Below, piece after piece: positions 19,542-42,985 of a stretch of 64,000 bases of DNA. The translations under genes and the position numbers were made by a program. The notes under the pieces were generated by a model, which saw nothing but the letters and a program-made list of their open reading frames with translations, did no database searches and was not told where the DNA came from. The DNA comes from Nonomuraea rubra. GTDB taxonomy: Bacteria > Actinomycetota > Actinomycetes > Streptosporangiales > Streptosporangiaceae. Where the stretch lies: the NCBI RefSeq assembly GCF_014207985.1, contig NZ_JACHMI010000001.1, forward strand, positions 5,811,001-5,875,000, read 5' to 3'. Each line of letters starts with the position of its first letter. The stretch's first letter is position 1.

Positions 19542-19577
19542 TAGGGTGGGCGCGGTGTGCCGGGAAGTCTGGTCGGC
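19542..19577 (+). promoter_or_regulatory. Extended -10 promoter plus 19-nt leader element, copy A (Na+/H+ antiporter)
   Basis: The -10 hexamer TAGGGT (19542-19547), preceded by TGT, is followed after 11 bases by GCCGGGAAGTCTGGTCGGC (19559-19577). The same arrangement occurs at four other places in the window. The element's ends can pair (GCCG with CGGC), leaving an 11-nt loop, and would lie 5-6 nt from the predicted 5' end of the mRNA. It is 63 bases upstream of the antiporter start. No good -35 hexamer is visible. Confidence 0.7.
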
Positions 19578-19614
19578 AAGATCGTGCAAGCTGTTCCGAC
19601 TGGAAGGCCGTTCC

Positions 19615-19641
19615 ATGACGACCCCCCCGCGGCGCCCCTGA
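19615..19641 (+). CDS. Eight-residue leader peptide (uORF) overlapping the antiporter start
   Basis: An ATG at 19615, with GGAAGG seven bases upstream, opens the frame MTTPPRRP and stops at a TGA (19639-19641) that overlaps the antiporter's ATG as TGATG. The antiporter's own start has no Shine-Dalgarno sequence, so its translation probably depends on termination at this uORF. The proline-rich run is the sort of sequence that slows ribosomes. Alternatively the antiporter might use an in-frame GTG further upstream, which lacks a binding site. Confidence 0.5.
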   Translation: MTTPPRRP

Positions 19642-20867
19642 TGGGCGTGCTGCTGACCGCGTTCGCGTGCGTGCTGCTGCTGGCCGTCCTGCTGTCCAGC
19701 CTGGCCCACCGCACCATCCTGTCCACCGCCGCACTGTTCCTCGTAGCGGGATTCGTGCTGGGCGACGGCGTGCTCGGTGTCGTCTCGCTGCGGCCCGGCG
19801 ACGACCTGGTGGCCACGCTGGCGGAGCTGGCGCTGTTCACCGTGCTGTTCACCGACGGCATGCGGGTCGGCTGGGCCGAGCTGCGCAGCGCCTGGCGGCT
19901 GCCCGGCCGGGCGCTCGGCTGGGGCCTGCCGCTGACCCTGGCCATCACCGCCATCGGGGCGCACTACCTGCTCGGGCTGGGCTGGATCGAGGCGCTGCTG
20001 ATCGGCGCCATTCTCGCGCCCACCGACCCGGTGTTCGCCGCCGCGCTGGTCGGCAACGAGAAGGTGCCGCCCCGGCTGCGGCAACTGCTCAACGTCGAGT
20101 CGGGCGTCAACGATGGCCTGGCGCTGCCGTTCGTCATCCTCTTCCTCGCCATCGCTGCCGGATCCGACGACCTCCATCTGGGCGAGCTGGGCCTGGAGCT
20201 GGGGCTCGGCATCGTCATCGGAGTCGCCATCCCCTGGGTGGCGATCAAGCTGGAGCAGACCCGCTGGTTCGCCGCCTCCACCCCGTACGAGCCGCTCAAC
20301 GCCCTGGCCATCGGCCTGCTCGTGCTGGCACTCGGCAAGGCCACGCACGGCAACCTGTTCCTGGCCGCGTTCTCCGCCGGCATCACCGTGGCCACGTTCG
20401 GGCCGCGGCAGCGCGAGTCGTTCGAGCACTTCGGCGAGCTGATCGCCGAGGTGTTCAAGCTGGCCGCGCTGCTGGTGTTCGGCGCGCTCATCACCCCGGC
20501 GCTGCTCGGCTCGGTCGGCTGGCAGGGGTGGCTGTTCGCGGTGCTCGCGCTGATCGTGGCCCGGCCCATCGCGATCTGGCTGTCGTTCCTGCGCTCCGGG
20601 CTGGGCGTGCGCGAGCAGGCGGCGGTGGCCTGGTTCGGGCCCAAGGGGTTCGCCTCCGTCGTCTACGGGCTGCTGGTGCTGGGCTCCGGCATCGCCGCCG
20701 CCGTGCCCGTGTTCCAGCTCGTCGCCGTGACCATCGTGCTGTCGATCCTGCTGCACTCCTCCACCGACATCGTGGTGGCCCGCTGGTTCGACGACGAGCG
20801 GGAGGTCCCGGCCTGGTACGGCAGCGTCACCCGCAAGATCCGCCGGCGGGAACGACCTTCCCCGTGA
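19641..20867 (+). CDS. Na+/H+ antiporter, CPA1/NhaP type
   Basis: About 408 residues with 12 or so membrane helices. Characteristic CPA1 segments include ILAPTDPVFAAALVG and the ion-binding ESGVNDGLALP (adjacent Asn-Asp), followed by a conserved Arg-containing helix. These proteins exchange Na+ (or K+) for protons to control pH and salt tolerance. The start at 19641 is preferred to an upstream in-frame GTG because the upstream codons translate the 19-nt leader element. Expression is likely controlled by that leader and the uORF. Confidence 0.93.
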   Translation: MGVLLTAFACVLLLAVLLSSLAHRTILSTAALFLVAGFVLGDGVLGVVSLRPGDDLVATLAELALFTVLFTDGMRVGWAELRSAWRLPGRALGWGLPLTLAITAIGAHYLLGLGWIEALLIGAILAPTDPVFAAALVGNEKVPPRLRQLLNVESGVNDGLALPFVILFLAIAAGSDDLHLGELGLELGLGIVIGVAIPWVAIKLEQTRWFAASTPYEPLNALAIGLLVLALGKATHGNLFLAAFSAGITVATFGPRQRESFEHFGELIAEVFKLAALLVFGALITPALLGSVGWQGWLFAVLALIVARPIAIWLSFLRSGLGVREQAAVAWFGPKGFASVVYGLLVLGSGIAAAVPVFQLVAVTIVLSILLHSSTDIVVARWFDDEREVPAWYGSVTRKIRRRERPSP

Positions 20868-20881
20868 CGCGAGGAGACACC

Positions 20882-21310
20882 ATGGCGTCCACTTCCCCAG
20901 CTCATGCCGAGCGCGTCGCCGTCGTAGCGATGCCGCCGCCGAGCTGTGCCAGGTTCTAGGCATCGCCCGCGTCGCTGCGGTCGTGGGGGTCTCGGCCGGC
21001 GGACGTACCGCGCTGACCACGGCGGCCCGCCACCGGCACCATGTCGAGCCTGCTCGTCGCCACGTGGGGGCCGATCCTGCTCGCGAGCGCGGCTGGGCGA
21101 AACGAGCGGCCGATGGGCGGTCCGCTCCCGGGCCGGCCGGTGCCCTCGTCATCGTCTTCGCCATCGCGGCCGGCATCGCCTACCGCCTGGACACGCTCGC
21201 GATCCGGCGGCCGGCCCCCGCGGGCCTGCTCGAACACCTCCCGCTGCTGACCGGCTCCGGCTGGATCGTCCTCATCGGCGCGGATCTGCTGCGCTGCCAC
21301 GTGGCGAACA
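20882..21310 (+). pseudogene. Alpha/beta hydrolase scrap fused to a membrane-like segment
   Basis: An ATG at 20882 with a GAGGAG site starts a frame that stops after 25 codons. In another frame the sequence reads DAAAELCQVLGIARVAAVVG followed by GVSAGGRTALTTAARH: the nucleophile-elbow region (G-x-S-x-G) of an alpha/beta hydrolase. The same frame runs on without homology into a hydrophobic stretch ALVIVFAIAAGIAYRL and a second one around 21250, of unknown origin. It appears to be a hydrolase remnant joined by deletion to part of a membrane-protein gene. Confidence 0.45.
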
Positions 21311-21468
21311 CCGCTGCGGCCGGCAGAGCCGCTGACGAACGGGGCCGCGACCATGATCATCGTGACGGCCGATACAGTCCTGTCTCCGGTAGACGTCCTG
21401 AGGAAGCCGAGCGTGCCCGTGCATCCGGCCGGAGACGCGCCAGGCCACCGGTTCGGCCATCACGTCAA

Positions 21469-23421
21469 TCAGCACGTCGCGGTCGTCGTCGGCCGTACGC
21501 CGCCCTCCTCCTGGGCGCGCCGCAACAGGGCGGCGGCCGGCTCGCCGCCCGTCTGATGGCACGCCTTCTGCCGGGCAATCCCGCGAATGTGGTGGAGAAC
21601 CAGTGCCGGGTCGGCCAGGTGCAGGTAGTGGTCGTCAGTGGAGGCGACGATGTGGCGCCCGCGTGTCGACAGGGCCGCGATTTGGCTGTGGTGGGTGATG
21701 GTCGGCTGGTCACCGCGGGCGCTGAGAACGATCACGGGCAGCGAGCCCCACGATCCGGCGGTCCGGGGCTGCTCGCGGACGGCGCGGGTGCTGGCGTCGT
21801 AGGTGCGCATCTCCGCAGCGGCTGCCTCCCAGGTGGCCGGGCCGAACACCACGGGAACGTTGTCGCGGGTGAGCCGGGGTTCGCGCGGGTCGACCATCCA
21901 GTCTCCCGTACGCAGCAGGCCCACAGCGGCCGCCGCGGACCACACTCCGGCCTGGATCGCCGCCGGGGTGGCGAGATCCTTCATGGTGTGTTCGTCGGCT
22001 GGGTCCAGCAGCACCATGCCGGCGACGCGCTCGGGCCATCGGGCGTGGAAGAGCCGCGCGACGTGTCCACCCCAGGAGTGCCCCACGAAGACGAAGGGTC
22101 CCGATTCGCCCGCGCGGGACAGCAGTGCGGCGAGGTCGTCTGCCTGTGCGGTGACGTCCTGGTCGCCGGTTCCAGGGCTGCTCCAGGCATAGCCGGCGCG
22201 GTCGTAGGCGCAGGAGCGCCGCCCCGAGGTGGCGAGGGCGGCTTGGAGATCCGCCCAGGTCGTGGAGGAGTCGCCCCATCCGGACGCGAAGACCACCGTC
22301 GGGCCCTGGGTCCCCAGGCAGCGCAGGTGCAGGTGGTGCGAGCCCAGGTCGACCAAGCGGCCCGGGATGGCGTAACGCCGCGGGTCCGTGGGCGCGAGTG
22401 AGTGTTGGACGGCCGCGCCGGTCAGGGCGGCCACCAGGACGACGGTGAAGACGCCCGTCACCATGCGGCGTAGCCGGCGGGGACGCGCCCTCATGCGCGC
22501 CGGCACGGGCTCGCGCGCAGCCGCGCGGCGAAACGCGTCGCCGGCCACGAGGGCGGCGATGACCGCGAGCATGACGAGCCAGCCGGGCCATCCACCGAGC
22601 CCAAGGGTCCAGGGGTTGCTGAGCGCCTGGCGGTCGTCGGCGGCGAACAGCACCTGGACGAAGGCGTTGACCAGTGTGTTGTTGGCGGCGTGGGCGATCA
22701 CGCAGGGCCAGATGAGCCCGGAGGCCAGCCGCAGCCAGCCGAGCAGCACGTTGAAGAGCACGACGGTCACCAGGAAGGGGACCAGCCGGTGGGCGGTGCC
22801 GGTGCCCACGAATCCGGGCAGGTGCCACAGCCCCCAGATCAGGCCGCCGAGCAGCAGCGCCGGCCACAGGCCGAGTGGCCGCAGCCGGGGCAGCAGGAAG
22901 CCCCGCCAGGCCCATTCCTCGCAGAAGAACAGCGGCAGCGCCAGGACTGACATCCCGAGGTTGACGGCCAGGGCGGACAGGATCGTTCCGACGGGCACGC
23001 CGTCCTGCCCGGCGGTCTCCGGCGCGTAAACAGCGCGCAACCCGGAGAAGCCGGTCAGGTCGATCGGATACACCCCGGCCAGGGCGCCGATTGCCACGGC
23101 CAGGAACGCGAACGCAGGCGGGGCGGCCAGCCCGATCAGGCAGAAACGCACCAGCCGGCCCGTGGGGCGCAGCGGCGCCATGGCGGTGTCGCGCGGGATG
23201 TCGCCGGGCCGGCGGACCCAGCGCACGGTCACGAACGTGGCGACGCCGACGCCGAGCATTCCGCCGGCCGCGACGAGGTCGATGCCGGTGAGCGCCCGCA
23301 CCAGCCACAGCAGCCACGGGATCGTGAAGGCGAGGATCAGGAAGGCTGTCAGCTCGCGTCGGCGGATGCCGCTGGGGCCCTGCCGTGCATCCGCGACGTA
23401 CTGGTCACTGATGGAACGCAT
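21469..23421 (-). CDS. CAAX-protease-like (CPBP) membrane protein fused to an alpha/beta hydrolase
   Basis: A 650-residue protein with two recognisable halves. Residues about 20-310 are a CPBP (Abi/CAAX) family intramembrane metalloprotease: motif 1 EEWAWRGFLLPRL, motif 2 WGLWHLPGF and motif 3 CVIAHAANN, across eight or so helices. A transmembrane segment near 320-340 leads to an alpha/beta hydrolase: FASGWGDSSTTW (oxyanion region), YDRAGYAWS, the nucleophile GHSWGG and a late His in DDHYLHLAD. The hydrolase would lie outside the membrane or on the opposite side. The two are usually separate proteins. An ATG start at 23421 is adequate. It is divergent from the GntR regulator gene. Confidence 0.85.
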   Translation of the reverse strand: MRSISDQYVADARQGPSGIRRRELTAFLILAFTIPWLLWLVRALTGIDLVAAGGMLGVGVATFVTVRWVRRPGDIPRDTAMAPLRPTGRLVRFCLIGLAAPPAFAFLAVAIGALAGVYPIDLTGFSGLRAVYAPETAGQDGVPVGTILSALAVNLGMSVLALPLFFCEEWAWRGFLLPRLRPLGLWPALLLGGLIWGLWHLPGFVGTGTAHRLVPFLVTVVLFNVLLGWLRLASGLIWPCVIAHAANNTLVNAFVQVLFAADDRQALSNPWTLGLGGWPGWLVMLAVIAALVAGDAFRRAAAREPVPARMRARPRRLRRMVTGVFTVVLVAALTGAAVQHSLAPTDPRRYAIPGRLVDLGSHHLHLRCLGTQGPTVVFASGWGDSSTTWADLQAALATSGRRSCAYDRAGYAWSSPGTGDQDVTAQADDLAALLSRAGESGPFVFVGHSWGGHVARLFHARWPERVAGMVLLDPADEHTMKDLATPAAIQAGVWSAAAAVGLLRTGDWMVDPREPRLTRDNVPVVFGPATWEAAAAEMRTYDASTRAVREQPRTAGSWGSLPVIVLSARGDQPTITHHSQIAALSTRGRHIVASTDDHYLHLADPALVLHHIRGIARQKACHQTGGEPAAALLRRAQEEGGVRPTTTATC

Positions 23422-23594
23422 GTTCTGGTCCTCTCCGACGGATCTCGGGTGTCATCGCCGTGCTTGAGAGACGGCGTCTGCCAGTTCGCTGGCATCGGTG
23501 GTGCTGATGAGCAGGTCGCCGGGCCTGCCCTCGATGTGGCGGGGTCGGGGCGGCACGGGGATGGATCCGGGGTCGCGACAGCCGTGCTTCTCCA

Positions 23595-23619
23595 TCTGTT
23601 ATACAACATCTATATCAGA
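23595..23619. promoter_or_regulatory. Inverted repeat operator for the GntR (YtrA-type) regulator
   Basis: TCTGTTATA-N7-TATATCAGA (8 of 9 positions paired) lies 12 bases upstream of the GntR start, within an AT-rich promoter. A possible -10 (TAGCAT, 23620-23625) lies six bases before the GTG, which suggests a leaderless transcript. YtrA-type regulators typically repress their own operon from such a site. Confidence 0.55.
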
Positions 23620-23631
23620 TAGCATTGGGAC

Positions 23632-24042
23632 GTGCTTCTGACGATCGACCTCGACAGCGAGGTGCCGATTTACCAGCAGATCCGCGATCGGGTGGTAGAG
23701 GCCATCGCAGACGGGGACCTGGTGGAGGGCGCGGCGCTGCCTTCCACCAGGCAGTTGGCCGCCGATCTGGCGATCAACTTCCACACCGTCAACAAGGCGT
23801 ACGATCTGCTGCGCCAACAGGGGATCATCCGCATCAACCGCAAAAGCGGAGCCGTGGTCCGCCGAGACCCGGGCTCCGGGCCGCCGCAGCCCGGCTACGC
23901 CGACGACTGGCAGGCGCGGCTACGCACGCTCCTCGCCGAGGCCACGGTGCATGGCCTGGCCCCCGACGAGGTGCTGCGGCGAAGCGGCGACCTCCTTGCC
24001 TCGTTCCACACCGAACGGACCGCGAAGGAGACCCCGGCATGA
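23632..24042 (+). CDS. GntR-family regulator, YtrA subfamily
   Basis: A 136-residue regulator from a GTG start. The winged helix-turn-helix is complete (YQQIRDRVVEAIADG, LPSTRQLAADLAINFHTVNK, YDLLRQQGII), and the C-terminal part is short, about 50 residues, as in YtrA-type regulators, which lack a large effector domain. The last codon overlaps the start of the downstream membrane-protein gene (ATGA). Such pairs often form self-regulated, envelope-stress-responsive operons. Confidence 0.93.
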   Translation: MLLTIDLDSEVPIYQQIRDRVVEAIADGDLVEGAALPSTRQLAADLAINFHTVNKAYDLLRQQGIIRINRKSGAVVRRDPGSGPPQPGYADDWQARLRTLLAEATVHGLAPDEVLRRSGDLLASFHTERTAKETPA

Positions 24043-25154
24043 CCATGCTCGCCCTCACCTGCATCGCCCAGACCGCGCTGCTCACCGTCGCCGCCTGGAC
24101 GTTACCGATGCTGGCCCGGCCCACCTTGCCCTTCGGGGTACGGGTGCCGGCCGGCCGGACAGCCGATCCGGCGATCACCGCGCAGCGCCGCCGGTACGCA
24201 CGCGCGGTGGTGCTTCTCGGCGCGCTGGCCGCCCTGCTGTCGGCTTTCGCCGTCGTACTGACCGGCGACCCGGATGTGCTCGCGGTCGCCGGCGTGCTCC
24301 TCGGCGTCGCCGACGCCGTGCTCTATGCGGCCGCGCATCGTGCGGTCCGCGCCACCAAGCGGCGCGGCAACTGGTACGGCGGCACCCGGCAGGCCGTCAC
24401 CGCCGACACCACCTGGCGTACCGATCCCGTACGCCCGCCATGGGCGCTGCTGCTTCCCTCGCTCATCGTGCTGGCCGCTACCGCCGCCATCGGGCTCGGC
24501 CGATACAGCAGCCTGCCCAGCACCCTGGCCACCCTGCGCGGGCTCGGCATCGACGTCCACAACCGCGTCCCCACCAGCCCGATGACCGCGTTCGCCCCCG
24601 TGTTGTCCCAGACGGCGCTCACCATCCTCGTCCCGCTGCTGCTGGTGGCCATCGTCCGCGCCCGACCGGAGACGGACGCCGAGCAGCCGGCGAGCTCGGC
24701 CCGGCGCTACCGCGTCTACCTGCGTGGCATCGCCACCATCCTGCTGGCCGGCGTGGCCTGCGTTGACCTCACCCTGCTCCTGCTGGCCCTGCAGCAGTGG
24801 GGTCTCCTCACGCCCTCGCCTCTGGTAGCGGCGGCAACCTGGGCGCCCACACTCGCCATCGCGGCCGCGTTCCTGCTCTTCGGCGTCCGTGTCGGCGAGG
24901 CAGGCCACCGCCTCCCGTCGCTGCGTGGGGAATCCGGCTCCGGCTACGTGCAACGCGACGACGACCGGCACTGGCATCTGGCCGGAACCATCTACGCCAA
25001 TCGCCATGACCCCGCGGTCCTCGTCCACCAACGCGTCGGCAGCCGATGGACGCTCAACCTCGGCAACCCTGTCGCCTGGGCCATCCTGGCCGTCGTGGCG
25101 GTACTTGCGCTGCTGTCACTCCTCGGCGTCGTCGAACTGCCGTCCACTGGCTAA
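24039..25154 (+). CDS. DUF1648/DUF5808-type membrane protein
   Basis: A 371-residue protein with about eight membrane helices, starting at the ATG overlapping the GntR stop. The FGVRVP segment near residue 30 and a second FGVRVGE near 285 are typical of DUF1648 proteins. The C-terminal module (HWHLAGTIYANRHDPAVLVH, then VGSRWTLNLGNP) matches the DUF5808-type domain that occurs beside YtrA regulators. Biochemical function is unknown. Cotranscription with the regulator suggests a role in membrane stress. Confidence 0.85.
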   Translation: MTMLALTCIAQTALLTVAAWTLPMLARPTLPFGVRVPAGRTADPAITAQRRRYARAVVLLGALAALLSAFAVVLTGDPDVLAVAGVLLGVADAVLYAAAHRAVRATKRRGNWYGGTRQAVTADTTWRTDPVRPPWALLLPSLIVLAATAAIGLGRYSSLPSTLATLRGLGIDVHNRVPTSPMTAFAPVLSQTALTILVPLLLVAIVRARPETDAEQPASSARRYRVYLRGIATILLAGVACVDLTLLLLALQQWGLLTPSPLVAAATWAPTLAIAAAFLLFGVRVGEAGHRLPSLRGESGSGYVQRDDDRHWHLAGTIYANRHDPAVLVHQRVGSRWTLNLGNPVAWAILAVVAVLALLSLLGVVELPSTG

Positions 25155-25209
25155 GCATGGCGGGTCGGCTCGCGGCGCGGCAGGACGTGGTGCTTCCAGT
25201 AGACGGCCA

Positions 25210-25560
25210 TCAGCTCGGGGGCTCGTCCGGGGTCTGCCGATGTCGCGGTTCCGTCATCGGCAGACCTTGGAAGATGGGCGGCATCGCCGGCCCGACGCTG
25301 CCATCCCGGTCCCGCGGCACGCTGATCTCCACCGGGCCGACGTCGGCGACGACGGTCCTGGAGCGGGCACCGTTGCGGCTGTTGCCCGTCTCGCCGGCAC
25401 CGCGCTGGTGCTTGTCGTAGCCGAGATGGTCGGTGATCTCGCCTACCAGCCGGGCCACCGGCTCCCGATCCGGCTCCTTGTTCCTGGTCTCCTTGGGGCG
25501 CTCGCGCCACGCGGCGTCCTTCAGGTCGATCTCCGTCGATGCCCGGATCACAGTACTCAT
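25210..25560 (-). pseudogene. IS256-family transposase N-terminal fragment
   Basis: From the ATG at 25560 the minus strand encodes the start of an IS256-type transposase: VGEITDHLGYDKHQRGAGET, GNSRNGARSRTVVADVGPVE and SVPRDRDGS, the conserved region ahead of the first catalytic Asp. Directly after RDGS the homology ends and the frame closes at 25210, so the catalytic DDE domain has been deleted. No terminal inverted repeats were found. Confidence 0.75.
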
Positions 25561-25645
25561 CAGGTGCGTTCGATGAATCCAGGAGCGGTGGTTCGCACGT
25601 CTAAATTCTCCGGATGACCATGTGTGGCGTGATGAAGGGCGGAGT

Positions 25646-26134
25646 GTGAACGACAGGCTCGTTGGAGCACTATCCGAGGACGACCCCGTAGTGGAGGCGG
25701 TGCTGACAGCCAGCCGGGCCTTGGTAGGGGTCGCAGCTCGCTCGATCGCCGCGGCGGGTGGAGATGTGACACTGCCGCAGTATCGTGCACTCGTCCTCAT
25801 GGCGGCGCGGGGTCCGCAACGACTCATCGACCTGGCGGAAGCCCTGGACGTGAACCGGTCGACGGCCACCCGCATGTGCGACCGCCTGGTGGCCAAGCGG
25901 CTGGTGCGGCGCAGCCGCCTGCCCAGTGACAGGCGCACGATCCGGATCTCGTTGACCAGCGAGGGGCGCGCGCTGGTGGACGGCGTGACCAAGAAACGCA
26001 GGGCCGATCTGGCGCAGATTCTTGCTCAACTCTCACAGGAGCAGCACGTCGCCGTTGTGGCGGCGCTGACGGCGTTCGCGGAGGCCGCCGATGAGAAGGA
26101 GGTGTCCGGGCACGCCGACATCCCGGCGTTGTGA
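25646..26134 (+). CDS. MarR-family transcriptional regulator
   Basis: About 162 residues from the GTG at 25646, which has GGCGGAG just upstream (an in-frame GTG at 25622 is possible). The winged helix reads LTLPQYRALVLM-like at the start, LAEALDVNRSTATRMCDRLV as recognition helix and RLPSDRRTIRISLTSEG as wing, the hallmark of MarR regulators. No divergent target gene remains; the upstream neighbour is a transposase relic, so its regulon is unclear. The 220 bases after it hold no gene. Confidence 0.93.
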   Translation: MNDRLVGALSEDDPVVEAVLTASRALVGVAARSIAAAGGDVTLPQYRALVLMAARGPQRLIDLAEALDVNRSTATRMCDRLVAKRLVRRSRLPSDRRTIRISLTSEGRALVDGVTKKRRADLAQILAQLSQEQHVAVVAALTAFAEAADEKEVSGHADIPAL

Positions 26135-26356
26135 GGATGGAGACCGGTGTGCCGTGGCTCAGCCGGCGTGGGTCGCAGACGCCCCTACAGCGGCGCGGTG
26201 AGTAGCTCCATGTCGTGATGGCGAGCTCATGGACGATGGCCGGCAATTCGGCGGCGCTGTCCAGCTCTAGCTGCCTCCTGCTGCATCGGGCCTAGCCCAC
26301 CCGAGCCCTGTCAGGTCGCGAAGCGGAGGGCACATCTGGGCGGTCCATGACTTCGC

Positions 26357-27397
26357 TCAACTGCCGTTCCTGCGTAGCAGCAGCATCGCCGCGTCATCCA
26401 GCAGCGGTCCACCGGTGTGGCCGACGAGGTCGGCACGCAGGGCGTCGAGGGCTTCCTGAGGCTCGCTCGCCCGCAGCAGATGAACGCGGTCGGACAGAGG
26501 ATAGAAGTCGCCGCTGTCGTCCCGGGCCTCCACCACGCCGTCGGTGTACAAGAGGATCTGGTCGCCTTCCCGGAAGGGAACTCGGTGCGCCTTGGGGCGG
26601 CCTGCGCCGAGCGGGCCGAGGCCCAGGGGCAGGCCTTCGTCCGGCGGTTCGACGGTGCAGGACTTCCCGCCGAGGGCGATCAGGAAGGGTGGCGGATGGC
26701 CGTGGTTGAGCAGGACGATCTCGCTGTCCCGTACTTCGGCGATGATCGCGGTGACGAACTTCTCCCCGCTCAGATGCCGGGCCAGGCTGGACTCCAGCCG
26801 CTCGCTCACGTCGTCGAGCTCGGGTTCGTCATAGGCGGCCTCGCGGAAGGCGCCGAGAACCCATGCGGCGGTCTCGACCGCGTCGAGCCCCTTGCCCTGG
26901 ACGTCCCCGATGAGCAGCCGGACGCCGTACGGGGTGGTGACGACCTCGTAGAGATCGCCGCCGATCCTCGCCTCGGCCGCCGCGGAGGTGTAGGAGAGGG
27001 CCACTTGCAGGTCGGCGGCCTTGCGCGGGACCGGGCGCAGCAGCACGCGCTGCGCGGCCTCGGCGACCAGGCGGACGTTGGCGAGTTCGCGCTCGCGTTT
27101 CAGCCGCAGGTGACTGACCAGCATGCTCGCGCCGGTGGCGCTGACGATCGTGGCGATGGTGAGGTTGTTCTGCCACTTGAGCAGCGAGCCGTTGTAGTAC
27201 GCCAAGGGGATGCAGATGGTGAGCGCGACCACGCCGATCAGCGCGGTGCGCCGGACGCTGCCGTACACCGAGCCGAAGCTCGGCCCCAGCGTGAGCAGGG
27301 GAAGAAAGCCTAACGAGGGTCCGGCGAGGAGATCGATCAGTGCGACGGGAACCATGACCAGGAATGGCAGCCAGCGCAGCGCCCACTGTGACCTCAT
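26357..27397 (-). CDS. PP2C/SpoIIE-type serine phosphatase, membrane-anchored
   Basis: About 346 residues from the ATG at 27397 (an in-frame ATG at 27493 would add 32 residues of poor homology). Four or so hydrophobic helices occupy residues about 8-105, followed by a SpoIIE phosphatase domain: ARIGGDLYEVV, LIGDVQGKGLDA, LLNHGHPPPFLI, LLYTDGVVEARD and a final LLDDAAMLLLR with the metal-binding aspartates. Such enzymes dephosphorylate STAS anti-anti-sigma factors and control alternative sigma factors. A STAS protein is encoded divergently, 185 bases away. Palindromes TTGC-N5-GCAA lie in the shared intergenic region. Confidence 0.93.
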   Translation of the reverse strand: MRSQWALRWLPFLVMVPVALIDLLAGPSLGFLPLLTLGPSFGSVYGSVRRTALIGVVALTICIPLAYYNGSLLKWQNNLTIATIVSATGASMLVSHLRLKRERELANVRLVAEAAQRVLLRPVPRKAADLQVALSYTSAAAEARIGGDLYEVVTTPYGVRLLIGDVQGKGLDAVETAAWVLGAFREAAYDEPELDDVSERLESSLARHLSGEKFVTAIIAEVRDSEIVLLNHGHPPPFLIALGGKSCTVEPPDEGLPLGLGPLGAGRPKAHRVPFREGDQILLYTDGVVEARDDSGDFYPLSDRVHLLRASEPQEALDALRADLVGHTGGPLLDDAAMLLLRRNGS

Positions 27398-27452
27398 CCA
27401 GTGCCACCGAACCCCATGTGCCCTCCAGTGGTAGACCGCCGCACAAATATCC

Positions 27453-27499
27453 TTGCATAGTGCAACGAAGTTTGCGCTGTGAACGTTGCACACGGCAAC
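27453..27499. promoter_or_regulatory. Two TTGC-N5-GCAA palindromes between phosphatase and STAS genes
   Basis: TTGCATAGTGCAA at 27453-27465 and GTTGCACACGGCAAC at 27485-27499 share the pattern TTGC-N5-GCAA. The second ends seven bases before the STAS gene's -10 hexamer, overlapping the -35 position. Two more copies occur at 29081 and 29458. They look like binding sites for one dimeric regulator that is not identifiable here. Confidence 0.55.
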
Positions 27500-27506
27500 G
27501 GACTGC

Positions 27507-27544
27507 TAAGGTCGCCTCAGGGTGAGCCGGGAAGTCTGGTCGGC
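27507..27544 (+). promoter_or_regulatory. Extended -10 promoter plus 19-nt leader element, copy B (STAS gene)
   Basis: TAAGGT (27507-27512), preceded by TGC, is followed after 13 bases by GCCGGGAAGTCTGGTCGGC (27526-27544), identical to copies A, C and D. The STAS start codon is 37 bases further on, with AGGG as ribosome-binding site. A TTGCAC at 27486 could act as a weak -35 with a short 15-base spacer, but it lies within the TTGC-N5-GCAA operator. Confidence 0.7.
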
Positions 27545-27581
27545 GCTGTAGAAGCGCGCCTTCGGACCAGGGACGTACAAC

Positions 27582-27956
27582 ATGGATCCCGCAGACCTGG
27601 ACATTCCCCCGGACGATCCCGACTTCGACATCCAGCTCGACCGGCACGGCAACGTTGTCCTGCTGTCCCTGACCGGGCGGCTCGACACCGTGGCCTGCGT
27701 GATCCTCAAGCAGTACGTGGTCAAGGCGCTGGTGAGCCGGATCCCGCCGTTGCTGATCATGGACCTCACCTTCCTGACGGCGATCGACGGGTGCGGCTGC
27801 GATCTTCTCTCGTCGGCCTCCCAGCACGCCAGGGCCGCCGGCGGGCGGCTGATCGTCATCGATGGCGGGGTCCTGCCCGGTCACGCGGCCGAGGACGTCG
27901 AGCTGCTCCCGTCCATGGCAGACGCTCTCATCGAGCTCACCCGCTCCCGGCAGTAG
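27582..27956 (+). CDS. STAS-domain protein (anti-sigma factor antagonist-like) lacking the phospho-serine
   Basis: A 124-residue STAS protein: FDIQLDRHGNVVLLSLTGRL, then the central LLIMDLTFLTAIDGCGCDLL. In canonical antagonists such as SpoIIAA the loop reads DSSG and the serine is phosphorylated by the anti-sigma kinase; here residues 69-72 are Asp-Gly-Cys-Gly, so the phosphorylatable serine is replaced by Cys71. It may be a constitutively active antagonist, a redox-sensitive variant or a scaffold. The 3' end overlaps the convergent K+ channel gene by 20 bases. It is divergent from a SpoIIE-type phosphatase. Confidence 0.88.
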   Translation: MDPADLDIPPDDPDFDIQLDRHGNVVLLSLTGRLDTVACVILKQYVVKALVSRIPPLLIMDLTFLTAIDGCGCDLLSSASQHARAAGGRLIVIDGGVLPGHAAEDVELLPSMADALIELTRSRQ

Positions 27957-28719
27957 TGCCCGGGCCGTCATCACGACGCTCGGCGAGCTCGTCGAGCCGG
28001 GCGCGCACCTTCCTGAGCTCGGCCAGGACGAGCCGGAGGTCGGCCTCGTTGCGGCTCTCCGCGGCCGAGGTCTGCTGGAAGCGTTCGACGAACCAGGCGG
28101 CGATGGAGGCGGTGACCACACCGAGCAAGGCGATGCCCGACAGCATCAACGTCGCTGCGATGAGCCTGCCCTCCAGCGTGGTCGGATAGAGGTCCCCGTA
28201 ACCAACGGTCGTCATCGTCGTGAGTGACCACCACAGGGCGTCGGACAGGGTGACGATGGTGGGGTCGGCGGAGCGGCGTTCGGCGTCCAGCACGGCGATG
28301 GCGCCGACCAGGGCCAGGAAGCAGGCCCAGCCGCTGACGTACACGGTGACCCGCATGCGCAGCGGGAGCGTGACCCGGCGCATCAGCGCGGTCAGAAGCA
28401 GCAGCGAGCGCAGCACCGCCAAGGGCCGTAGCAGCGGCAGCAGAACGACCAGCAACGACGGAATATGCGTGGCGATGAAGTGCCGGCGCCGGTCGGACAG
28501 CCACACCCTGATGGCGTAGTCGGCGGCGAACAGCGCCCAGGCGGTCTGCTGGATGCCCTCGAGCCAGCGGTCGGTGTTCTCCGGCAGCTGGGGCAGCACG
28601 ATGGGCAGCGCCCAGCCGGCCAGGAAGAGGATGCCGACGCCGAGCAGAACGGGGTCGGTCCTGCGTTCCCAGGCACGCAGGCGAGACGATGGCAAGGGTG
28701 CCGTGCGGGGCTGTTCCAT
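27937..28719 (-). CDS. Voltage-gated-like potassium channel (6TM, KvAP-like)
   Basis: A 260-residue protein with an N-terminal helical region, an arginine-containing segment (LRPLAVLRSLLLLTALMRRV, a degenerate voltage-sensor-like helix) and a pore module with selectivity filter TVGYGD at 171-176, framed by two helices. The C-terminal 45 residues are charged and probably a coiled coil (NEADLRLVLAELRKVRARLD). It would conduct K+ across the cytoplasmic membrane. A possible small ORF precedes it by 8 bases. It adds to the unusual density of cation-transport genes in this segment. Confidence 0.93.
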   Translation of the reverse strand: MEQPRTAPLPSSRLRAWERRTDPVLLGVGILFLAGWALPIVLPQLPENTDRWLEGIQQTAWALFAADYAIRVWLSDRRRHFIATHIPSLLVVLLPLLRPLAVLRSLLLLTALMRRVTLPLRMRVTVYVSGWACFLALVGAIAVLDAERRSADPTIVTLSDALWWSLTTMTTVGYGDLYPTTLEGRLIAATLMLSGIALLGVVTASIAAWFVERFQQTSAAESRNEADLRLVLAELRKVRARLDELAERRDDGPGTTAGSG

Positions 28720-28727
28720 CCTTGTCC

Positions 28728-28892
28728 TCAGAGAGCGGGTACGCGGGCGGTCAGGCGTCGCGGCCGGTCGGCACTGACCTTGCCGGGTTCCGCGCCCTCG
28801 ACGTCCACGCGGGCGTCGAGCTGCTGCATGGTTGCGTCCAGCCTGGCGATCCGAGTGTGCCCGTGGCGTTCAGCCTGCCTGGTGCGTGGCAT
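28728..28892 (-). CDS. Possible 54-residue protein upstream of the K+ channel
   Basis: A short frame from the ATG at 28892 (GGCAGG about 6 bases upstream) ends 8 bases before the channel's start. It encodes a charged soluble peptide with a heptad-like stretch (IARLDATMQQLDARVDVEG). No family is recognised. Its spacing suggests an operon, but the codon pattern alone does not prove translation. Confidence 0.35.
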   Translation of the reverse strand: MPRTRQAERHGHTRIARLDATMQQLDARVDVEGAEPGKVSADRPRRLTARVPAL

Positions 28893-29080
28893 GACTGACC
28901 TGCCTGATTCCTCTGGGCGGCAAGGTGTGTCGCCGTGCGCGGCGGTTCGCATCTGCAGTCATGGGCGGAACCGGGCATGCCCGATCACACGATGTGTGTC
29001 CTGCATCGAGTTTCGCGGACGCACCCGGGTCCCTGTCCCTGCATGACGCTCTCCGACGTTGAGTCGCCTCCGGCAATCTA

Positions 29081-29093
29081 TTGCACAGTGCAA
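29081..29093. promoter_or_regulatory. TTGC-N5-GCAA palindrome, copy 3
   Basis: TTGCACAGTGCAA, flanked by A and T to make a 15-bp near-perfect palindrome, downstream of the decayed DUF4142 gene. It is the best-matching copy of the site found twice at 27453-27499. Confidence 0.5.
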
Positions 29094-29214
29094 TCGTTGT
29101 CCAGGGCTCCACTGCCTTGCATCCTGCTGCGCCGGTGCTCTCCAGCAGGCGCTGATGATGAGCACCGCGGCGCTGGCCTGCTCGGGCGGCGCCGGACGTG
29201 GCGGAGATGTCGCT

Positions 29215-32373: not shown

Positions 32374-33048
32374 TCAGGGTAGTTCGGCGAAGCGTTCGAT
32401 GCGGTCGGGCGGACCGGAGACAATGATCATGTCGTCGTAGGCGAGTTCGGTGTCCGCGGTGGCATAGGTGAACTCCTCGTCCGGGCGTTTGACTGCCACG
32501 ATCGTGAGGCCGTATCTGCTGCGCAGACTGGAGTCGCCGAGCGCGATGCCGACGAAGTCCCTGGGAGGACGGATCTTGGCCATCGCGAAGTTCTCGTCGA
32601 CCTCCATGTAATCGAGCAGCCGGCCGCTGACCAGGCGAGCGACGCGCTCGCCCATGTCGTGTTCAGGGAAGACGACATGCCGGACGCCGACGCGGCGCAA
32701 GATCTCGCCGTGCTGCTTGCTGACGGCCTTGGCCCAGATGTCGTCGATCTCGAGCTCCACCAAGAGCGAGGCGGTGAGGATGCTGGCCTGGATGTCGCTG
32801 CCGATGGCGCACACCGCGCGGCGGAAGTCGGGGACTCCGAGCCGTTGGAGCGCGTCCAGGTCGGTGGAGTCGGCGACGGCGACCTGGGTGATCTGTCCGG
32901 TATAGCTCTGTACCAGCTTGGGCCGGTGATCGATGGCCAGCACCTCGGTGCCACGCCGGGTCAGCTCCAGTGCGAGTGCACTGCCGAAGCGACCCAGTCC
33001 GATGACCACGACCGTGTCCTGCTGCTCGATGTCGGTCAACGATCTCAC
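32374..33048 (-). CDS. TrkA-family potassium uptake regulator (RCK protein)
   Basis: A 224-residue RCK protein: Rossmann motif VVVIGLGRFGSALALEL, acidic residue at the end of strand 2 (LAIDH), and a C-terminal RCK_C (TrkA_C) subdomain starting near residue 140 and ending with the typical DDMIIVSGP. It would bind nucleotide and gate a TrkH/KtrB channel. The GTG at 33048 is very close to its GGAG site; a TTG nine bases later is an alternative. Its presumed partner trkH lies 2 kb upstream on the same strand, with the CBS and ArsB genes between. Confidence 0.93.
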   Translation of the reverse strand: MRSLTDIEQQDTVVVIGLGRFGSALALELTRRGTEVLAIDHRPKLVQSYTGQITQVAVADSTDLDALQRLGVPDFRRAVCAIGSDIQASILTASLLVELEIDDIWAKAVSKQHGEILRRVGVRHVVFPEHDMGERVARLVSGRLLDYMEVDENFAMAKIRPPRDFVGIALGDSSLRSRYGLTIVAVKRPDEEFTYATADTELAYDDMIIVSGPPDRIERFAELP

Positions 33049-33136: not shown

Positions 33137-34426
33137 TCACAGATAGCGCAGCCACAGGTACGGCACGCACAACGCGATCGTCACCACGGTCACGACCAGG
33201 CCGTACCGGGTGAACTGCCAGAAGCTGATCGGGGTGCCGTTGCGGGCGGCGATGCCCAGCACGACCACGTTGGCCGCCGCGCCCACCGCCGTGGCGTTGC
33301 CGCCGAGGTCGGCCCCGAAGGCCAGGGCCCACCACAGCACCTGGGCGTGCTCGTTGCCGCCGTTGGCCTGGACGAGCTCGGCGACGATGGGGCTCATGGT
33401 GGCCACGTACGGGATGTTGTCCACGATCGCCGACAACCCGCCTGACGCCCACAGCAGCAGCATCGTGGCGAAGCCCATCTGCCCCTGGGTGGCCTCGGCC
33501 GCCGCCTTCGAGATCTGCGGGATCACTCCCGTCTCCACCAGGGACCCGACCATGACGAACAGTCCGGCGAAGAACACCAGTGTCGGCCACTCGACCTCGC
33601 GGATCGCCTCCTCGGCGGTGACGCGGGTCGCGGCCACCAGCACGCCGGCGCCCAGCACGGCGACCACCGACGGCTCGTAGTGCAGCACCGGATGCAGCAC
33701 GAACGCCGCCATGACCAGCACCAGCACGGCCAGCGACTGCCACAGCAGCCGCCGGTCGGCGATGGCCTCCCGCTCGTTCAGCGCCATGACCTCCGCCGCC
33801 CGTACCGGGTCGTAGACGAAGAACCTGCGGAACAGGAAGCGGCACATGCCGATATATACGATCATGAGCACGATGACCATCGGCGCCATGTGCACGAGGA
33901 AGTCGTTGAAGCTCAGCCCGCCCCGGCTGGCGATGATGATGTTCGGCGGGTCGCCGACCAGGGTGGCGGCGCCGCCGATGTTCGAGGCCAGCGCTTCGGC
34001 GATGAGGAACGGCGCCGCGGGCAGCGCCAGCCGCTCGCACACCAGGAACGTCACCGGGGCGATCAGCAGCACGGTGGTGACATTGTCCAGCAGCGCCGAG
34101 GCCAGCGCGGTGATCACGACCAGCAGCACCATCAGCCGGTACGGCCGTCCCCTGGCGCGCTTGGCGGCCCAGATCGCCAGGAATTCGAAGACGCCGGTCT
34201 GTTTCAGCACGCCGACGATCACCATCATGCCGAGCAGCAGGAAGATGACGTTCCAGTCGATGCCGGTCTCTTCGGAGAAGAACGCGGCTTCGGCGTCGGT
34301 GGCGTGGATCAGCAGCATGATCCCGGCCCCGCCGAGCGCCGCCGCGACGCGGTGGATCTTCTCGCTGGCGATCAGCGCGTACGCGCCGAGGAAGACCGCC
34401 ACCGCCACCCATGCGGTGACCGTCAC
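33137..34426 (-). CDS. ArsB/NhaD-type ion transporter (SLC13-like permease)
   Basis: About 429 residues from a GTG that overlaps the CBS gene's stop codon (GTGA). The permease has about 11 helices and two inverted repeats with the family motifs [30 protein letters not shown] and [15 protein letters not shown], plus a late [14 protein letters not shown]. These motifs mark the ArsB/NhaD branch of the ion-transporter superfamily, whose members export arsenite or exchange Na+/H+. No ars genes are nearby, and the Trk neighbours make a Na+/H+ or related cation role more likely (inference). Confidence 0.9.
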
Positions 34427-34866
34427 TCGGACACCGCCCGGTCCAGCAGCGCCTGGAGGGTCACGGCGCCGATGAGTTCTCCGTCGTCCACCACGGCCAC
34501 CAGAGGGCTGTGCGTGCGGGCCATTAACGCCGCCACCTCGAGCAGCGTGGCATCGGGATCGGTGATGGGGAGCTCGCGAGGCCGTGGCGGCAGCGCGTCG
34601 CGGACAGTACGGTCGGCTACCGACCGCAGGAAGCGGTCGGCGTGCTCCTCGTCCACCACCCGCGCCAGCGCCGGATCTTCCTGGCAGTAGTCCGGCACCG
34701 CCAGGCGCAGCACCTGCGTGCCGGGCAGGACGCTCAAGGGCAGCCCTTGCTCGTCGACCACGATCAAGCCAGGCAACCGCTGCTGGGCCAGCAGACGTGC
34801 CGCCGCCGCTATGGACGTGTCCGGGGTAACGGTCGGCAGGGTCGTAATCAGATCGCGCGCACGCAT
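34423..34866 (-). CDS. CBS-domain pair protein
   Basis: A 147-residue protein made of two CBS motifs: the first in residues about 5-60 ([35 protein letters not shown]), the second in about 85-145 ([33 protein letters not shown]). CBS pairs bind adenine nucleotides and often regulate transporters. The stop codon overlaps the ArsB/NhaD start by four bases, so a regulatory partnership with that permease is likely. ATG start with GAGG seven bases upstream. It is preceded by leader element copy C. Confidence 0.9.
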
Positions 34867-34901
34867 CAGGAAGCCTCGCTCGGGAACGACGACAGGAACT
34901 C

Positions 34902-34938
34902 GCCGACCAGACTTCCCGGCACACCTACCGACAACGTA
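34902..34938 (-). promoter_or_regulatory. Extended -10 promoter plus 19-nt leader element, copy C (CBS-ArsB operon)
   Basis: On the minus strand TACGTT (34938-34933), preceded by TGA, is followed after 12 bases by GCCGGGAAGTCTGGTCGGC (34920-34902). The CBS start is 35 bases downstream. The -10 spacing and element sequence match copies A, B and D. Confidence 0.7.
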
Positions 34939-35053
34939 TCAACAACCGTCTGAACCGTGCTGCTCGCCCCCGCCCATGGCGCCTGCGGCGGCTTTCGTGC
35001 AGCGTATGCCTCGACCGGCCTCCGGTGCGCGCCAAGCCGCCGGGGTCCCTGTG

Positions 35054-36406
35054 TCAGCCAACGATCACTTTTTCCTCCGGTAGTTCGTAGCGGCGGGTGC
35101 GTTGTTTCAGCGCGAGCGCCGAGCCCAGGGTGAGCGGGCCGATGCGGCCGATGAACATCAGCACACTGAGCAGCACGTGTCCGGCCAGCGAGGTGTGGGC
35201 GGTGATGCCGGTGGACAGGCCGTTGGTGGCGAAGGCCGAGATCGCCTCGAACAGCACCTGGTCGAGGCTGTGTGGTGTGATGATGAGCAGCAGCCAGGTG
35301 GAGATCGCGACCAGGATGACGCCGAGCAGGCTGATGGACAATGCCTGCCGTTGCGTCGCGGAGGGCAGCCGCCGATGGCCGATGTTGACCTGATGCTCGC
35401 CGCGCAGTTCGGACCAGATGATGAAGAGCAGGAAGCCGAACGTGGTGACCTTGATGCCGCCCGCGGTTCCGGCGCTGCCGCCGCCGATGAACATCAGGAC
35501 GTCCGTGACCAGCCAGGAGGAGGGGTACATCTGGCCGATGTCGAGGGTGTTGAAGCCACCGGAGCGTGGCATGACGGCGGCGAAGAAGGCGGCCAGCAGC
35601 TTGCCGGAGTCGTCCAGGGGGCCCATCGTGGCCGGATTGCGCCACTCCGTCATCAGGAACGTGAGGGTGCCCGCGGCAAGGAGTAACGCGCTCACGCCGA
35701 CGGTGATGCGGGTCAGGACGGACCAGCGCCGCGGGTACCGCCAGGTGCGCAGCAGTTCGAAGACCACCGGATAGCCGAGGCCGCCGACGATGACCGCCAG
35801 GGCGATGGTGAGGCAGATCCACGGGTCGGTGACGAAGCGCATCAGGTTGTCCGGCCAGAGCGCGAAGCCGGCGTTGTTGAACGCCGATACCCCGTGAAAG
35901 ACACCGAGGTAGACAGCCCGGCCCAGCGGCTCGCCGTACCCGGTGATGAACCGTACGGCGAGGACTGCGGCGATGGCCACCTCGCAGATCAGGCTGAACG
36001 TCACCACTTTGCGCAGCACGTGACGCAGGTCGGCCGCGACCACGGACTTGGTCTCCAGCTGGGCGGACAGCCTGGCCCGCAGGCCGACCCGGCCGGAGAC
36101 GATGACCAGGATGAGCGTGGCCAGCGTCATGATGCCCAGCCCACCGACCTGGATGAGCAGGACGATCACTACCTCACCGAACACCGACCAGTGCGTCTCG
36201 GTGTCGACCACGACCAGGCCGGTCACGCAGACTGCGGAGGTGGCGGTGAACAGAGCCGTGAGCCAGTGAGAGCTGTCGCCTTCTGTTGTGGCCAGCGGGG
36301 TGCCGAGCAGTAGCGTTCCGATCAGCACTGCCAAGCCGAACCCGGCCGTGATGACCACGGCGGGATGCCGGCCGCGGCCCGGCACAGCCGGGTGGCGCCG
36401 CATCAT
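35054..36406 (-). CDS. trkH: TrkH/KtrB-type potassium transporter
   Basis: A 450-residue membrane protein with the four-fold M1-P-M2 organisation of Trk/Ktr channels. The P-loop regions can be seen as FTATSAVCVTGLVV, FHGVSAFNNAGFAL, FAAVMPRSGGFNTLDI and FEAISAFATNGLSTG, each with a filter glycine. It mediates K+ uptake gated by a TrkA/RCK protein, probably the one at 32374. The start is ATG-ATG, overlapped by the stop codon of an upstream uORF. Transcription appears to begin at leader copy D. Confidence 0.93.
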   Translation of the reverse strand: MMRRHPAVPGRGRHPAVVITAGFGLAVLIGTLLLGTPLATTEGDSSHWLTALFTATSAVCVTGLVVVDTETHWSVFGEVVIVLLIQVGGLGIMTLATLILVIVSGRVGLRARLSAQLETKSVVAADLRHVLRKVVTFSLICEVAIAAVLAVRFITGYGEPLGRAVYLGVFHGVSAFNNAGFALWPDNLMRFVTDPWICLTIALAVIVGGLGYPVVFELLRTWRYPRRWSVLTRITVGVSALLLAAGTLTFLMTEWRNPATMGPLDDSGKLLAAFFAAVMPRSGGFNTLDIGQMYPSSWLVTDVLMFIGGGSAGTAGGIKVTTFGFLLFIIWSELRGEHQVNIGHRRLPSATQRQALSISLLGVILVAISTWLLLIITPHSLDQVLFEAISAFATNGLSTGITAHTSLAGHVLLSVLMFIGRIGPLTLGSALALKQRTRRYELPEEKVIVG

Positions 36407-36459
36407 GCGATCGCCCGGCGCTGCGGGTTGCCGGACAAGCTGGCAACGTCGTCATCCAT
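36403..36459 (-). CDS. Eighteen-residue leader peptide (uORF) overlapping the trkH start
   Basis: The frame MDDDVASLSGNPQRRAIA begins at the ATG at 36459, with GGAG eight bases upstream, and its TGA overlaps the trkH start as ATGATG. trkH has no good ribosome-binding site of its own, so translation is likely coupled to this uORF. The antiporter gene under leader copy A has the same arrangement with an unrelated peptide. Confidence 0.5.
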   Translation of the reverse strand: MDDDVASLSGNPQRRAIA

Positions 36460-36496
36460 CGCGGAGTCTCCGTTCGGTCGCGCGGCCGTAGACGTC

Positions 36497-36533
36497 GCCG
36501 ACCAGACTTCCCGGCACTCCGAGCCATACCGTA
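36497..36533 (-). promoter_or_regulatory. -10 promoter plus 19-nt leader element, copy D (trkH)
   Basis: On the minus strand TACGGT (36533-36528) is followed after 12 bases by GCCGGGAAGTCTGGTCGGC (36515-36497). This is the only copy without the TGN extension of the -10. The trkH start is 90 bases downstream, and the leader contains an 18-codon uORF. Confidence 0.7.
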
Positions 36534-42109: not shown

Positions 42110-42143
42110 GTCCGCGTACTCCCTTCCGACAGTGTGTGTCTAT

Positions 42144-42168
42144 GAAAACAGATCGTAGATTTGTTTTC
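42144..42168. promoter_or_regulatory. TetR operator, copy 2 (monooxygenase promoter)
   Basis: GAAAACA-N11-TGTTTTC, a perfect 7-bp inverted repeat 35 bases upstream of the monooxygenase start. It shares arm sequence with the operator at 39915. Confidence 0.6.
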
Positions 42169-42457
42169 AAGGTGAGGATCGCGGATGCGTGCCTCCTGGC
42201 GCGGCCAGTCGACGACAACCAGGGAAGAAACGGCCGGATCCAGCTGTAGCTGCTGCTGCTGACGGCCAGTGACATCGATGAGATCCGGCCATGCCTGCCG
42301 CCTCAATTTGATATACGTGGCGGGCACCTTTCCTGTCTGCGTAAAGAACGTGTTGGAAGCCGTAGGGATTGCGTAGAGATTCCGAAGGAAAAAGGCCGCT
42401 GGAAGCCAGGAAGAGATGAGATGAAGTGGTTTTCCTGGCGGAGAAAGGACTGGGGCG
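42169..42457. other. Intergenic region with a long-range inverted repeat
   Basis: No gene is seen. GGCCGGATC (42232-42240) and GATCCGGCC (42282-42290) can pair over a 41-base loop that contains a CTG-rich run. It lies upstream of the membrane-protein gene at 42458 and could be a terminator-like or leader structure; no U-rich tract follows, so I do not call a terminator. Confidence 0.35.
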
Positions 42458-42880
42458 ATGCGTAAGCACGAGTGGGCAGGGCTGATTCCGGCCGGATTCG
42501 CATTCGTGGTCGTCATGTGCGCTGCTTCCGCGCTGACCTTTCCCGGGAGCGCGGCGCGCGTAGTGGTCATGGTGGTCGGCATCGGAGTTTTCGGTCTGTG
42601 CGCGGGCCGCTACCCGGCCGCGCTCGCGGCAGGAGCGATGGGCTGGTTCTTCACGACAGGGTTCCTGGTCAATGCCAAGGGCGTGCTGACATTCGGGAGC
42701 GACGACCTCACCCGGCTGGCCGGGTTCGCCGTTGTGGCGGCTGCGGGTTGCGCTTGCGGACGGGCGTATCACGCACTTTGTTTCCACGGCCGATCGGCGA
42801 GGCGGGCGGGAGCGGATGACCATCGGGTCGCCATCCCGGCTGTCCGGATTCCTGGAAGCCATCAGGAACATCCCGTCTGA
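42458..42880 (+). CDS. Small membrane protein with DUF4118-like helices
   Basis: A 140-residue protein from an ATG with AAAGGA upstream. Four hydrophobic segments (about 9-26, 33-50, 52-68, 82-98) resemble the membrane module of KdpD-type kinases (GRYPAALAAGAMGWFFTTGF), but there is no kinase domain. The last 30 residues are polar and end just before the phosphotransferase promoter. Function unknown; it may be a truncated sensor. Confidence 0.6.
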   Translation: MRKHEWAGLIPAGFAFVVVMCAASALTFPGSAARVVVMVVGIGVFGLCAGRYPAALAAGAMGWFFTTGFLVNAKGVLTFGSDDLTRLAGFAVVAAAGCACGRAYHALCFHGRSARRAGADDHRVAIPAVRIPGSHQEHPV

Positions 42881-42948
42881 GTGATGCGGCGAAGTTCCCG
42901 GGAGCGAGGTGGTGCGACCTTGCCCTGGTGTGCGAGCTTCGGCGGTGC

Positions 42949-42985
42949 TAACGTCCGAACTGGAGCGCCGGGAAGCCTGGTCGGC
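42949..42985 (+). promoter_or_regulatory. Extended -10 promoter plus 19-nt leader element, copy E (PEP-utilising enzyme)
   Basis: TAACGT (42949-42954), preceded by TGC, is followed after 12 bases by GCCGGGAAGCCTGGTCGGC (42967-42985). It differs from the other four copies at one loop position (C instead of T). The start codon at 43025 is 39 bases further on. Confidence 0.7.

Follow-up and report, generated by a model that had tools for sequence, protein, structure and literature searches.

A 25-nucleotide leader hairpin before cation/proton antiporter genes of Actinomycetota and Chloroflexota, a candidate riboswitch-like element

The window analysed here, a 64-kb stretch of the Nonomuraea rubra genome (contig NZ_JACHMI010000001.1, positions 5,811,001 to 5,875,000), carries five copies of a short element, each of which leads into a gene, among them genes for a cation/H+ antiporter, a TrkH-type transporter and a STAS-domain protein. 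A search of the window for GCCGGGAAGYCTGGTCGGC with up to three mismatches gave five matches, where 0.24 would be expected by chance and the highest count among 100 shuffles was three; all five are free of mismatches and lie where the preliminary description had placed them. The whole genome (12.88 Mb) holds nine exact copies of the 19-mer, including these five. The element had been described as 19 nucleotides long, but conservation runs five nucleotides further upstream, giving a unit of about 25 (24–25) nucleotides that can be written GGWGY-GCCG-GGAAGNCUGGU-CGGC-R. Among 198 non-redundant copies, GG[T/A]G[T/C/A] precedes GCCGGGAAGNCTGGTCGGC, with G at −5 in 96%, at −4 in 97% and at −2 in 97%, and the next base after it is A or G in 87%. 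The 11-nucleotide loop GGAAGNCUGGU is almost invariant and is enclosed by the GCCG/CGGC stem. The GG.G start is present in eight of the nine copies in the genome; the exception, L008, has its promoter hexamer much nearer.

Using the exact 19-mer with one base left free, the element was found in 80 of 98 genomes comprising N. rubra and its relatives, with a single match in all for the reversed control, and in 77 of 296 genomes drawn from across the phylum, with none for the control. A scan of named genomes, covering at least 119 stretches, added Streptomyces, Mycolicibacterium, Micromonospora, Nocardia, Arthrobacter and Frankia, together with Acidimicrobiaceae, Solirubrobacterales, others and a few Chloroflexi. 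The second phylum was approached through a Ktedonobacteraceae locus (L187). The 24-mer was present in 12 of 151 Chloroflexota genomes (control 0), and the 15 matches listed all lacked mismatches although one was allowed. In one class around genome G634, apparently the Ktedonobacteria, 21 of 47 genomes carry it (control 0), in a sample that overlaps the 151. The element is nearly identical in the two phyla. Five matches on viral contigs were judged from their flanks to be chance and kept out of the family counts. The same judgement was made of matches in Mesorhizobium (L150) and Eremiobacterota (L172, which remained among the 122 proteins described below) and of 6 of 18 places with a variant stem or loop (L315, L316, L320, L322, L323 and L325).

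The ends of the element had been proposed to pair, and the stem does covary. With GG.G and the loop fixed and the stem left free, 150 matches were listed, 97 with GCCG/CGGC and 53 with another stem. Seven of these 53 are fully complementary, where 0.2 would be expected (GTCG/CGAC four times, GCTG/CAGC, GGCG/CGCC and TCCG/CGGA once each); the other 46 are mostly chance-like matches of the short loop pattern. In a second list, which shares genomes with the first, 7 of 22 stem variants were complementary by hand count among the matches listed. Copies with GTCG/CGAC (L308, L309) and GCTG/CAGC (L310, L321) precede nhaA, as assigned by Pfam. The four TCCG/CGGA copies that were fetched (L312, L313, L314 and L324) have one genus label (g11) and a similar promoter region, and ABC-transporter ATPase genes follow the last three. 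L311, before a Na_H_Exchanger gene, has one C.A mismatch in its stem. An alignment of 62 distinct rows is 99.6% paired, a figure biased by pre-filtering to five stem types, with 18 loci left out, so that only its covariation is usable. The four GG tracts of the element might also suggest a G-quadruplex, which was rejected in favour of the hairpin because the paired variants CGAC and CAGC break one tract.

Below the stem, no column pair tested had more mutual information than positions −1 and +19 (0.53 bits, n = 210). The pair is U.G in 91 copies, C.A in 63, A.A in 16, U-A in 13, U.C in 8, A.G in 5, C-G in 2 and something else in 12; with later loci included (252 copies, filtered), there are 100 U.G, 73 C.A, 21 U-A, 17 A.A and 16 U.C. 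U.G and C.A together make up 83 of 102 listed copies from 37 genomes, compared with a mean of 60.2 and a maximum of 77 when the 3′ letters are shuffled within genomes, and Watson–Crick pairs number 4 against a shuffled mean of 26.8. The first stem-free list alone (53 listed copies, 18 genomes) gives 39 against a mean of 29.7 (p = 0.0002). U.G and C.A exceed what shuffling within genomes gives, and the pair is thus, as far as sequence comparison goes, kept largely non-Watson–Crick by more than shared ancestry. A U.G pair is isosteric with a protonated C.A pair. Stem and wobble together provide the conserved and covarying structured domain expected of a riboswitch.

The position of the element relative to promoters is constrained as well. 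A TANNNT −10 hexamer ends 11–13 nucleotides before the GCC in all five window copies, as the preliminary description had it, and over 210 copies the last T falls at −14 to −11 in 144 (shuffled mean 6.1, maximum 14), most commonly at −13 (103 copies). The TGN extension, seen by eye in four of the five, does not hold as a general trait, being present in 21 of 210. Since the hexamer most often ends at −13, transcription probably starts at or close to the element's first G, about eight bases past the hexamer, a position deduced from promoter spacing that replaces an earlier proposal of 5–6 nucleotides before the element. For the promoter tests, and for the two-state tests below, the Actinomycetota sets are the loci below L274, with a few others included (such as L097, L164 and L187).

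On the other side, the first start codon lies 35–39 nucleotides past the element in all five window copies. A start had been claimed for each, over a wider range of 35–90 nucleotides, the longer distances arising because the first start of copies 1 and 4 belongs to a short upstream open reading frame (ORF), of 8 and 18 codons, respectively, that overlaps the real gene. The overlaps with the antiporter and trkH starts suggest translational coupling. The start of the picked ORF is 30–39 nucleotides past the element in 81 of 189 copies. A gene start with a Shine–Dalgarno sequence follows in sense after 134 of 181 copies, compared with 18 of 181 in antisense and 121 of 905 random positions, in keeping with the proposal of a leader element; by a crude coding test, 74 of the 181 fall within a long open frame of either strand. 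The copies do not lie at random with respect to promoters and genes, and this placement upholds the view that they are no mobile repeat. A leader peptide beginning at a GTG of the element was considered and rejected: its frame varies among copies, and the GTG is missing from copy 5.

To assign the genes that follow, 198 copies were used, 9 without an ORF of 90 residues within 200 nucleotides and 189 with one; setting aside 9 copies from the N. rubra genome and 4 viral copies leaves 176 proteins, scanned with Pfam as sets of 54 and 122. The ORFs were chosen by length and codon-position rules and some are wrong. NhaA (PF06965) is encoded next in 95 of 176 cases (26 of 54 and 69 of 122) and Na_H_Exchanger (PF00999) in 18 (6 and 12). 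Other families in the two sets were CBS (4 and 5), ABC_tran (3 and 3), CitMHS (1 and 2) and DUF2254 (1 and 2); Proton_antipo_M was found in 4 and the P-type ATPase family (E1-E2) in 2 of the 54, PPDK_N in 3 of the 122, and TrkH, Na_Ca_ex, STAS and H_PPase once each. Counts for the larger set are those of the best 25 of 30 families. Among 32 Chloroflexota copies, the next gene encodes PF00999 in 18, NhaA in 4, P450 in 3, DUF2254 and Na_Ca_ex in 2 each, and CitMHS and PP2C_2 in 1 each. An association with Na+/H+ antiporter genes is also what is seen for Na+ or Li+ riboswitches.

Some of the other targets deserve mention. In both phyla the element is found before genes for DUF2254 membrane proteins (3 of 176, including L050 and L269, and 2 of 32, L299 and L304, assigned by likeness), hinting at a possible cation/H+ role for this family of unknown function. 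Cytochrome P450 genes, an unexpected target, follow three of the 32 Chloroflexota copies (L292, L298 and L303, assigned by eye). APC-type permeases follow some copies (L072 and L174/L270); the L072 protein has no Pfam match and a weak GABA-permease match, and we take these permeases to be reminiscent of KimA K+ importers. The loop variant CGGGU for CUGGU occurs in L318, which precedes an Mrp-type antiporter gene, and in L319, and possibly confers a different specificity. Within the window, positions 19641–36406 form a cation island made up of the CPA1-like antiporter, an ion channel, the CBS–NhaD–TrkA genes and TrkH (Table 1).

Table 1. Promoter hexamers, element copies and neighbouring genes in the window.
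Feature	Position	Strand	Basis
−10 hexamer TAGGGT, copy 1	19542..19547	+	sequence
Element copy 1 (24 nt plus base at +19), U-A at −1/+19	19554..19578	+	pattern search, flank conservation
8-codon upstream ORF overlapping next start (TGATG)	19615..19641	+	sequence
Cation/H+ antiporter, Na_H_Exchanger, CPA1-like, 408 aa	19641..20867	+	
−10 hexamer TAAGGT, copy 2	27507..27512	+	sequence
Element copy 2, A.G at −1/+19	27521..27545	+	pattern search
STAS-domain protein, 124 aa	27582..27956	+	Pfam
Ion channel (part of cation island)	27940-28719		
TrkA-like protein, after NhaD-like gene	32374..33048	−	
CitMHS/ArsB/NhaD-like transporter, next after CBS gene (start codon chosen by us)	33137..34420	−	
CBS-domain protein, 147 aa	34423..34866	−	Pfam
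Element copy 3, U.G at −1/+19	34901..34925	−	pattern search
−10 hexamer TACGTT, copy 3	34933..34938	−	sequence
TrkH-type cation transport protein, 450 aa	35054..36406	−	Pfam
18-codon upstream ORF overlapping trkH start (ATGA)	36403..36459	−	sequence
Element copy 4, U.G at −1/+19	36496..36520	−	pattern search
−10 hexamer TACGGT, copy 4	36528..36533	−	sequence
−10 hexamer TAACGT, copy 5	42949..42954	+	sequence
Element copy 5, C.A at −1/+19	42962..42986	+	pattern search
PPDK_N / phosphoenolpyruvate (PEP)-utilising enzyme (PEP synthase/Rph-like), 811 aa	43025..45460	+	Pfam

The nucleotides of the hairpin can also take part in other folds. In Chloroflexota the 5′ strand of the element (GGAGUGCCGGG, CGCCGGG or similar) base-pairs with a segment that immediately precedes a U run; in L282 it is the loop, not the 5′ strand, that does so. 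Under a strict rule, an intrinsic terminator incompatible with the hairpin is present in 20 of 32 Chloroflexota copies compared with 60 of 1600 downstream shuffles; this supersedes a laxer rule that gave 26 of 32 against 160 of 640. All 20 belong to the one class and several are near relatives. For Actinomycetota, 107 leaders were compared with 600 controls in which the element was joined to the ribosome-site region of another gene, and the hairpin was barred from forming throughout. The modelled pairing energy between element and leader is −19.2 kcal/mol for own leaders and −13.8 kcal/mol for controls (p = 2.5e-31), and pairs between the element and the ribosome-binding site number 7.2 and 3.5 (p = 1.2e-17). 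Compared with shuffled leaders (141 copies), the alternative state has 7.5 rather than 5.5 pairs on the 3′ side and 8.9 rather than 7.8 on the 5′ side, at an energy of −33.0 rather than −31.6. For each of the five copies in the window, the model favours the alternative fold over the hairpin state, by 8.5 to 15.2 kcal/mol. The mutual exclusion of expression platform and sensor fold that characterises riboswitches is therefore predicted for Chloroflexota, while for Actinomycetota the energy models give a statistical and mixed picture; the case for the two-state model is a strong one in the Chloroflexota class and a tentative one in Actinomycetota.

Taken together, the comparative evidence indicates that the element acts as an RNA, at the likely 5′ end of the mRNA, before cation/H+ antiporter genes in two phyla. 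We think it rather probable that it is a 5′-terminal, cis-acting, riboswitch-like leader of the ON type serving cation/proton homeostasis. The first ~25 nucleotides would form the hairpin, with its GCCG/CGGC stem, 11-nucleotide loop and non-Watson–Crick pair below the stem. In the alternative state the same nucleotides would join an intrinsic terminator in most copies of the Chloroflexota class, and in Actinomycetota a long fold reaching the ribosome-binding region. As hairpin and competing fold exclude each other, a signal that stabilises the hairpin would be expected to turn the gene on. The RNA may sense Na+ directly, which is our first choice, or pH, Li+ or another cation-stress signal; Na+ would seem the likeliest ligand, a guess from the list of genes. 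There is perhaps an even chance that the element is a new riboswitch class, a general sensor of Na+ (or Na+/pH) at the mRNA 5′ ends of Actinomycetota that is conserved in two phyla, with translation as its output in Actinomycetota and transcription termination in Chloroflexota; it might then rank among the smallest natural ion aptamers made of a single hairpin.

Several observations weigh against this riboswitch-like leader. The strict terminator rule fails in 12 of 32 Chloroflexota and 203 of 205 Actinomycetota copies. In the comparison of 107 leaders with 600 controls, own leaders show no advantage in total energy when in the alternative state (−32.4 against −33.7 kcal/mol), the gain in pairing being offset by their lower degree of structure apart from the element (−13.2 against −19.8), and burial of the Shine–Dalgarno sequence is slight (unpaired 0.41 against 0.47, p = 0.009). 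In the two-state comparison of 141 copies this sequence is freer in the alternative state (0.42 against 0.37), and simple Shine–Dalgarno burial, not clearly seen there, was rejected. Complementary 7-mers between element and leader are mildly raised (the best 35 against 16.6 and 47 against 29 of 210) and the complement of GUCUGGU is avoided in leaders (7 against 25.7). Folded in isolation, the element does not exceed shuffles in stability (z −0.07 to −1.24), and for three of four variants energy rules favour an inner hairpin, so that it is covariation that supports the outer stem. Targets such as P450, the PEP enzyme, a glycosyltransferase and STAS have no obvious cation role.

The main rival is that the hairpin is the site of an RNA-binding protein that senses the cation or stress state and acts as an antiterminator or against the ribosome-binding site. 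RAT (ribonucleic antiterminator) hairpins, which are binding sites of LicT/SacY/BglG-type antiterminator proteins in sugar operons, are similar in size and in the logic of hairpin against terminator; an invariant loop fits a protein as well as a ligand, and regulators or unusual enzymes figure among the targets (STAS, PP2C, CBS, P450). Such a protein would, however, need to keep its specificity unchanged across many genera of Actinomycetota and in Chloroflexota, and the targets resemble those of known Na+/Li+ riboswitches; we regard this rival as unlikely, if worth serious attention. Less likely still is an RNA whose folding is linked to pH through the C.A pair, which protonation of its adenine makes isosteric with U.G, or through protonated loop bases. 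The many Na+/H+ antiporter targets and the use of C.A and U.G (63 and 91 of 210 copies) with avoidance of Watson–Crick pairs would suit it, yet the proton is absent from U.G copies, which stand before the same genes, the nhaA cluster has both types, and A.A pairs occur as well (16 of 210). Protonation would moreover favour the hairpin in acid, opposite to the need for NhaA, which is generally required in alkali.

That the element is instead a DNA operator, an imperfect palindrome bound by a repressor just past the promoter, seems very improbable. The position would fit a repressor, and stem changes that preserve the palindrome are as symmetric in DNA as in RNA. Its asymmetric 11-nucleotide centre is nevertheless almost invariant, its orientation is biased towards the gene, the −1/+19 pair avoids symmetric combinations and the downstream strands complement the element as RNA.

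If the riboswitch-like leader is real, sodium, potassium and pH homeostasis would be under widespread RNA control in Actinomycetota, which include many antibiotic producers and soil bacteria. A 25-nucleotide hairpin with a covarying non-Watson–Crick pair would be small enough for nuclear magnetic resonance or crystal work on the recognition of monovalent ions or protons, and the element suggests functions for unknown genes behind it in both phyla, DUF2254 among them.

No described family had been recognised for the element, and this agrees with scans of Rfam 15, in which the whole window gave no match at or above the gathering threshold, the region 19300–43200 gave three weak matches at E up to 5, none overlapping a copy, and 161 bases around copy 2 gave two weak matches on the opposite strand at E up to 10. 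The Na+-I, Na+-II, Li+-I and Li+-II models, all four assumed to be in Rfam, were unmatched. Abstracts of the open-licence literature, searched by sequence letters and by subject, contained no description of the element. From its sequence it most likely represents a new riboswitch-like class. RAT sites are likewise small hairpins that overlap a terminator, but they belong to sugar operons and work with an antiterminator protein. The dauA motif of Streptomyces is outlined as a leader of STAS-protein genes, a three-stem junction including the Shine–Dalgarno sequence with 57 representatives (PMC11109978); copy 2 also leads a STAS-protein gene, but by that description the element stands apart as a single hairpin found mostly before antiporters. 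The alx pH-responsive element of E. coli, summarised as a two-state leader RNA active when transcribed under alkali (PMC3874183), is similar in having two states, a comparison made by description and the Rfam scans alone. The Li+-I and Li+-II riboswitches (nhaA-I and nhaA-II motifs) share nhaA as main target, and are reported from classes of Proteobacteria (PMC9646797), whereas the element comes from other phyla and has no Rfam match even at the permissive threshold around copy 2. Na+-I (the DUF1646 motif) and Na+-II are described in outline as leader RNAs of Na+ transport genes and as ON switches in which aptamer stem and intrinsic terminator are mutually exclusive (PMC9337991, PMC9646797). 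The element differs from them in being one 25-nucleotide hairpin of Actinomycetota and Chloroflexota without an Rfam match, and resembles them in its place in leaders of Na+ transport genes and in the exclusion between hairpin and terminator; the phyla from which these reports describe Na+ and Li+ riboswitches are other than those of the element (PMC9646797, PMC9337991).

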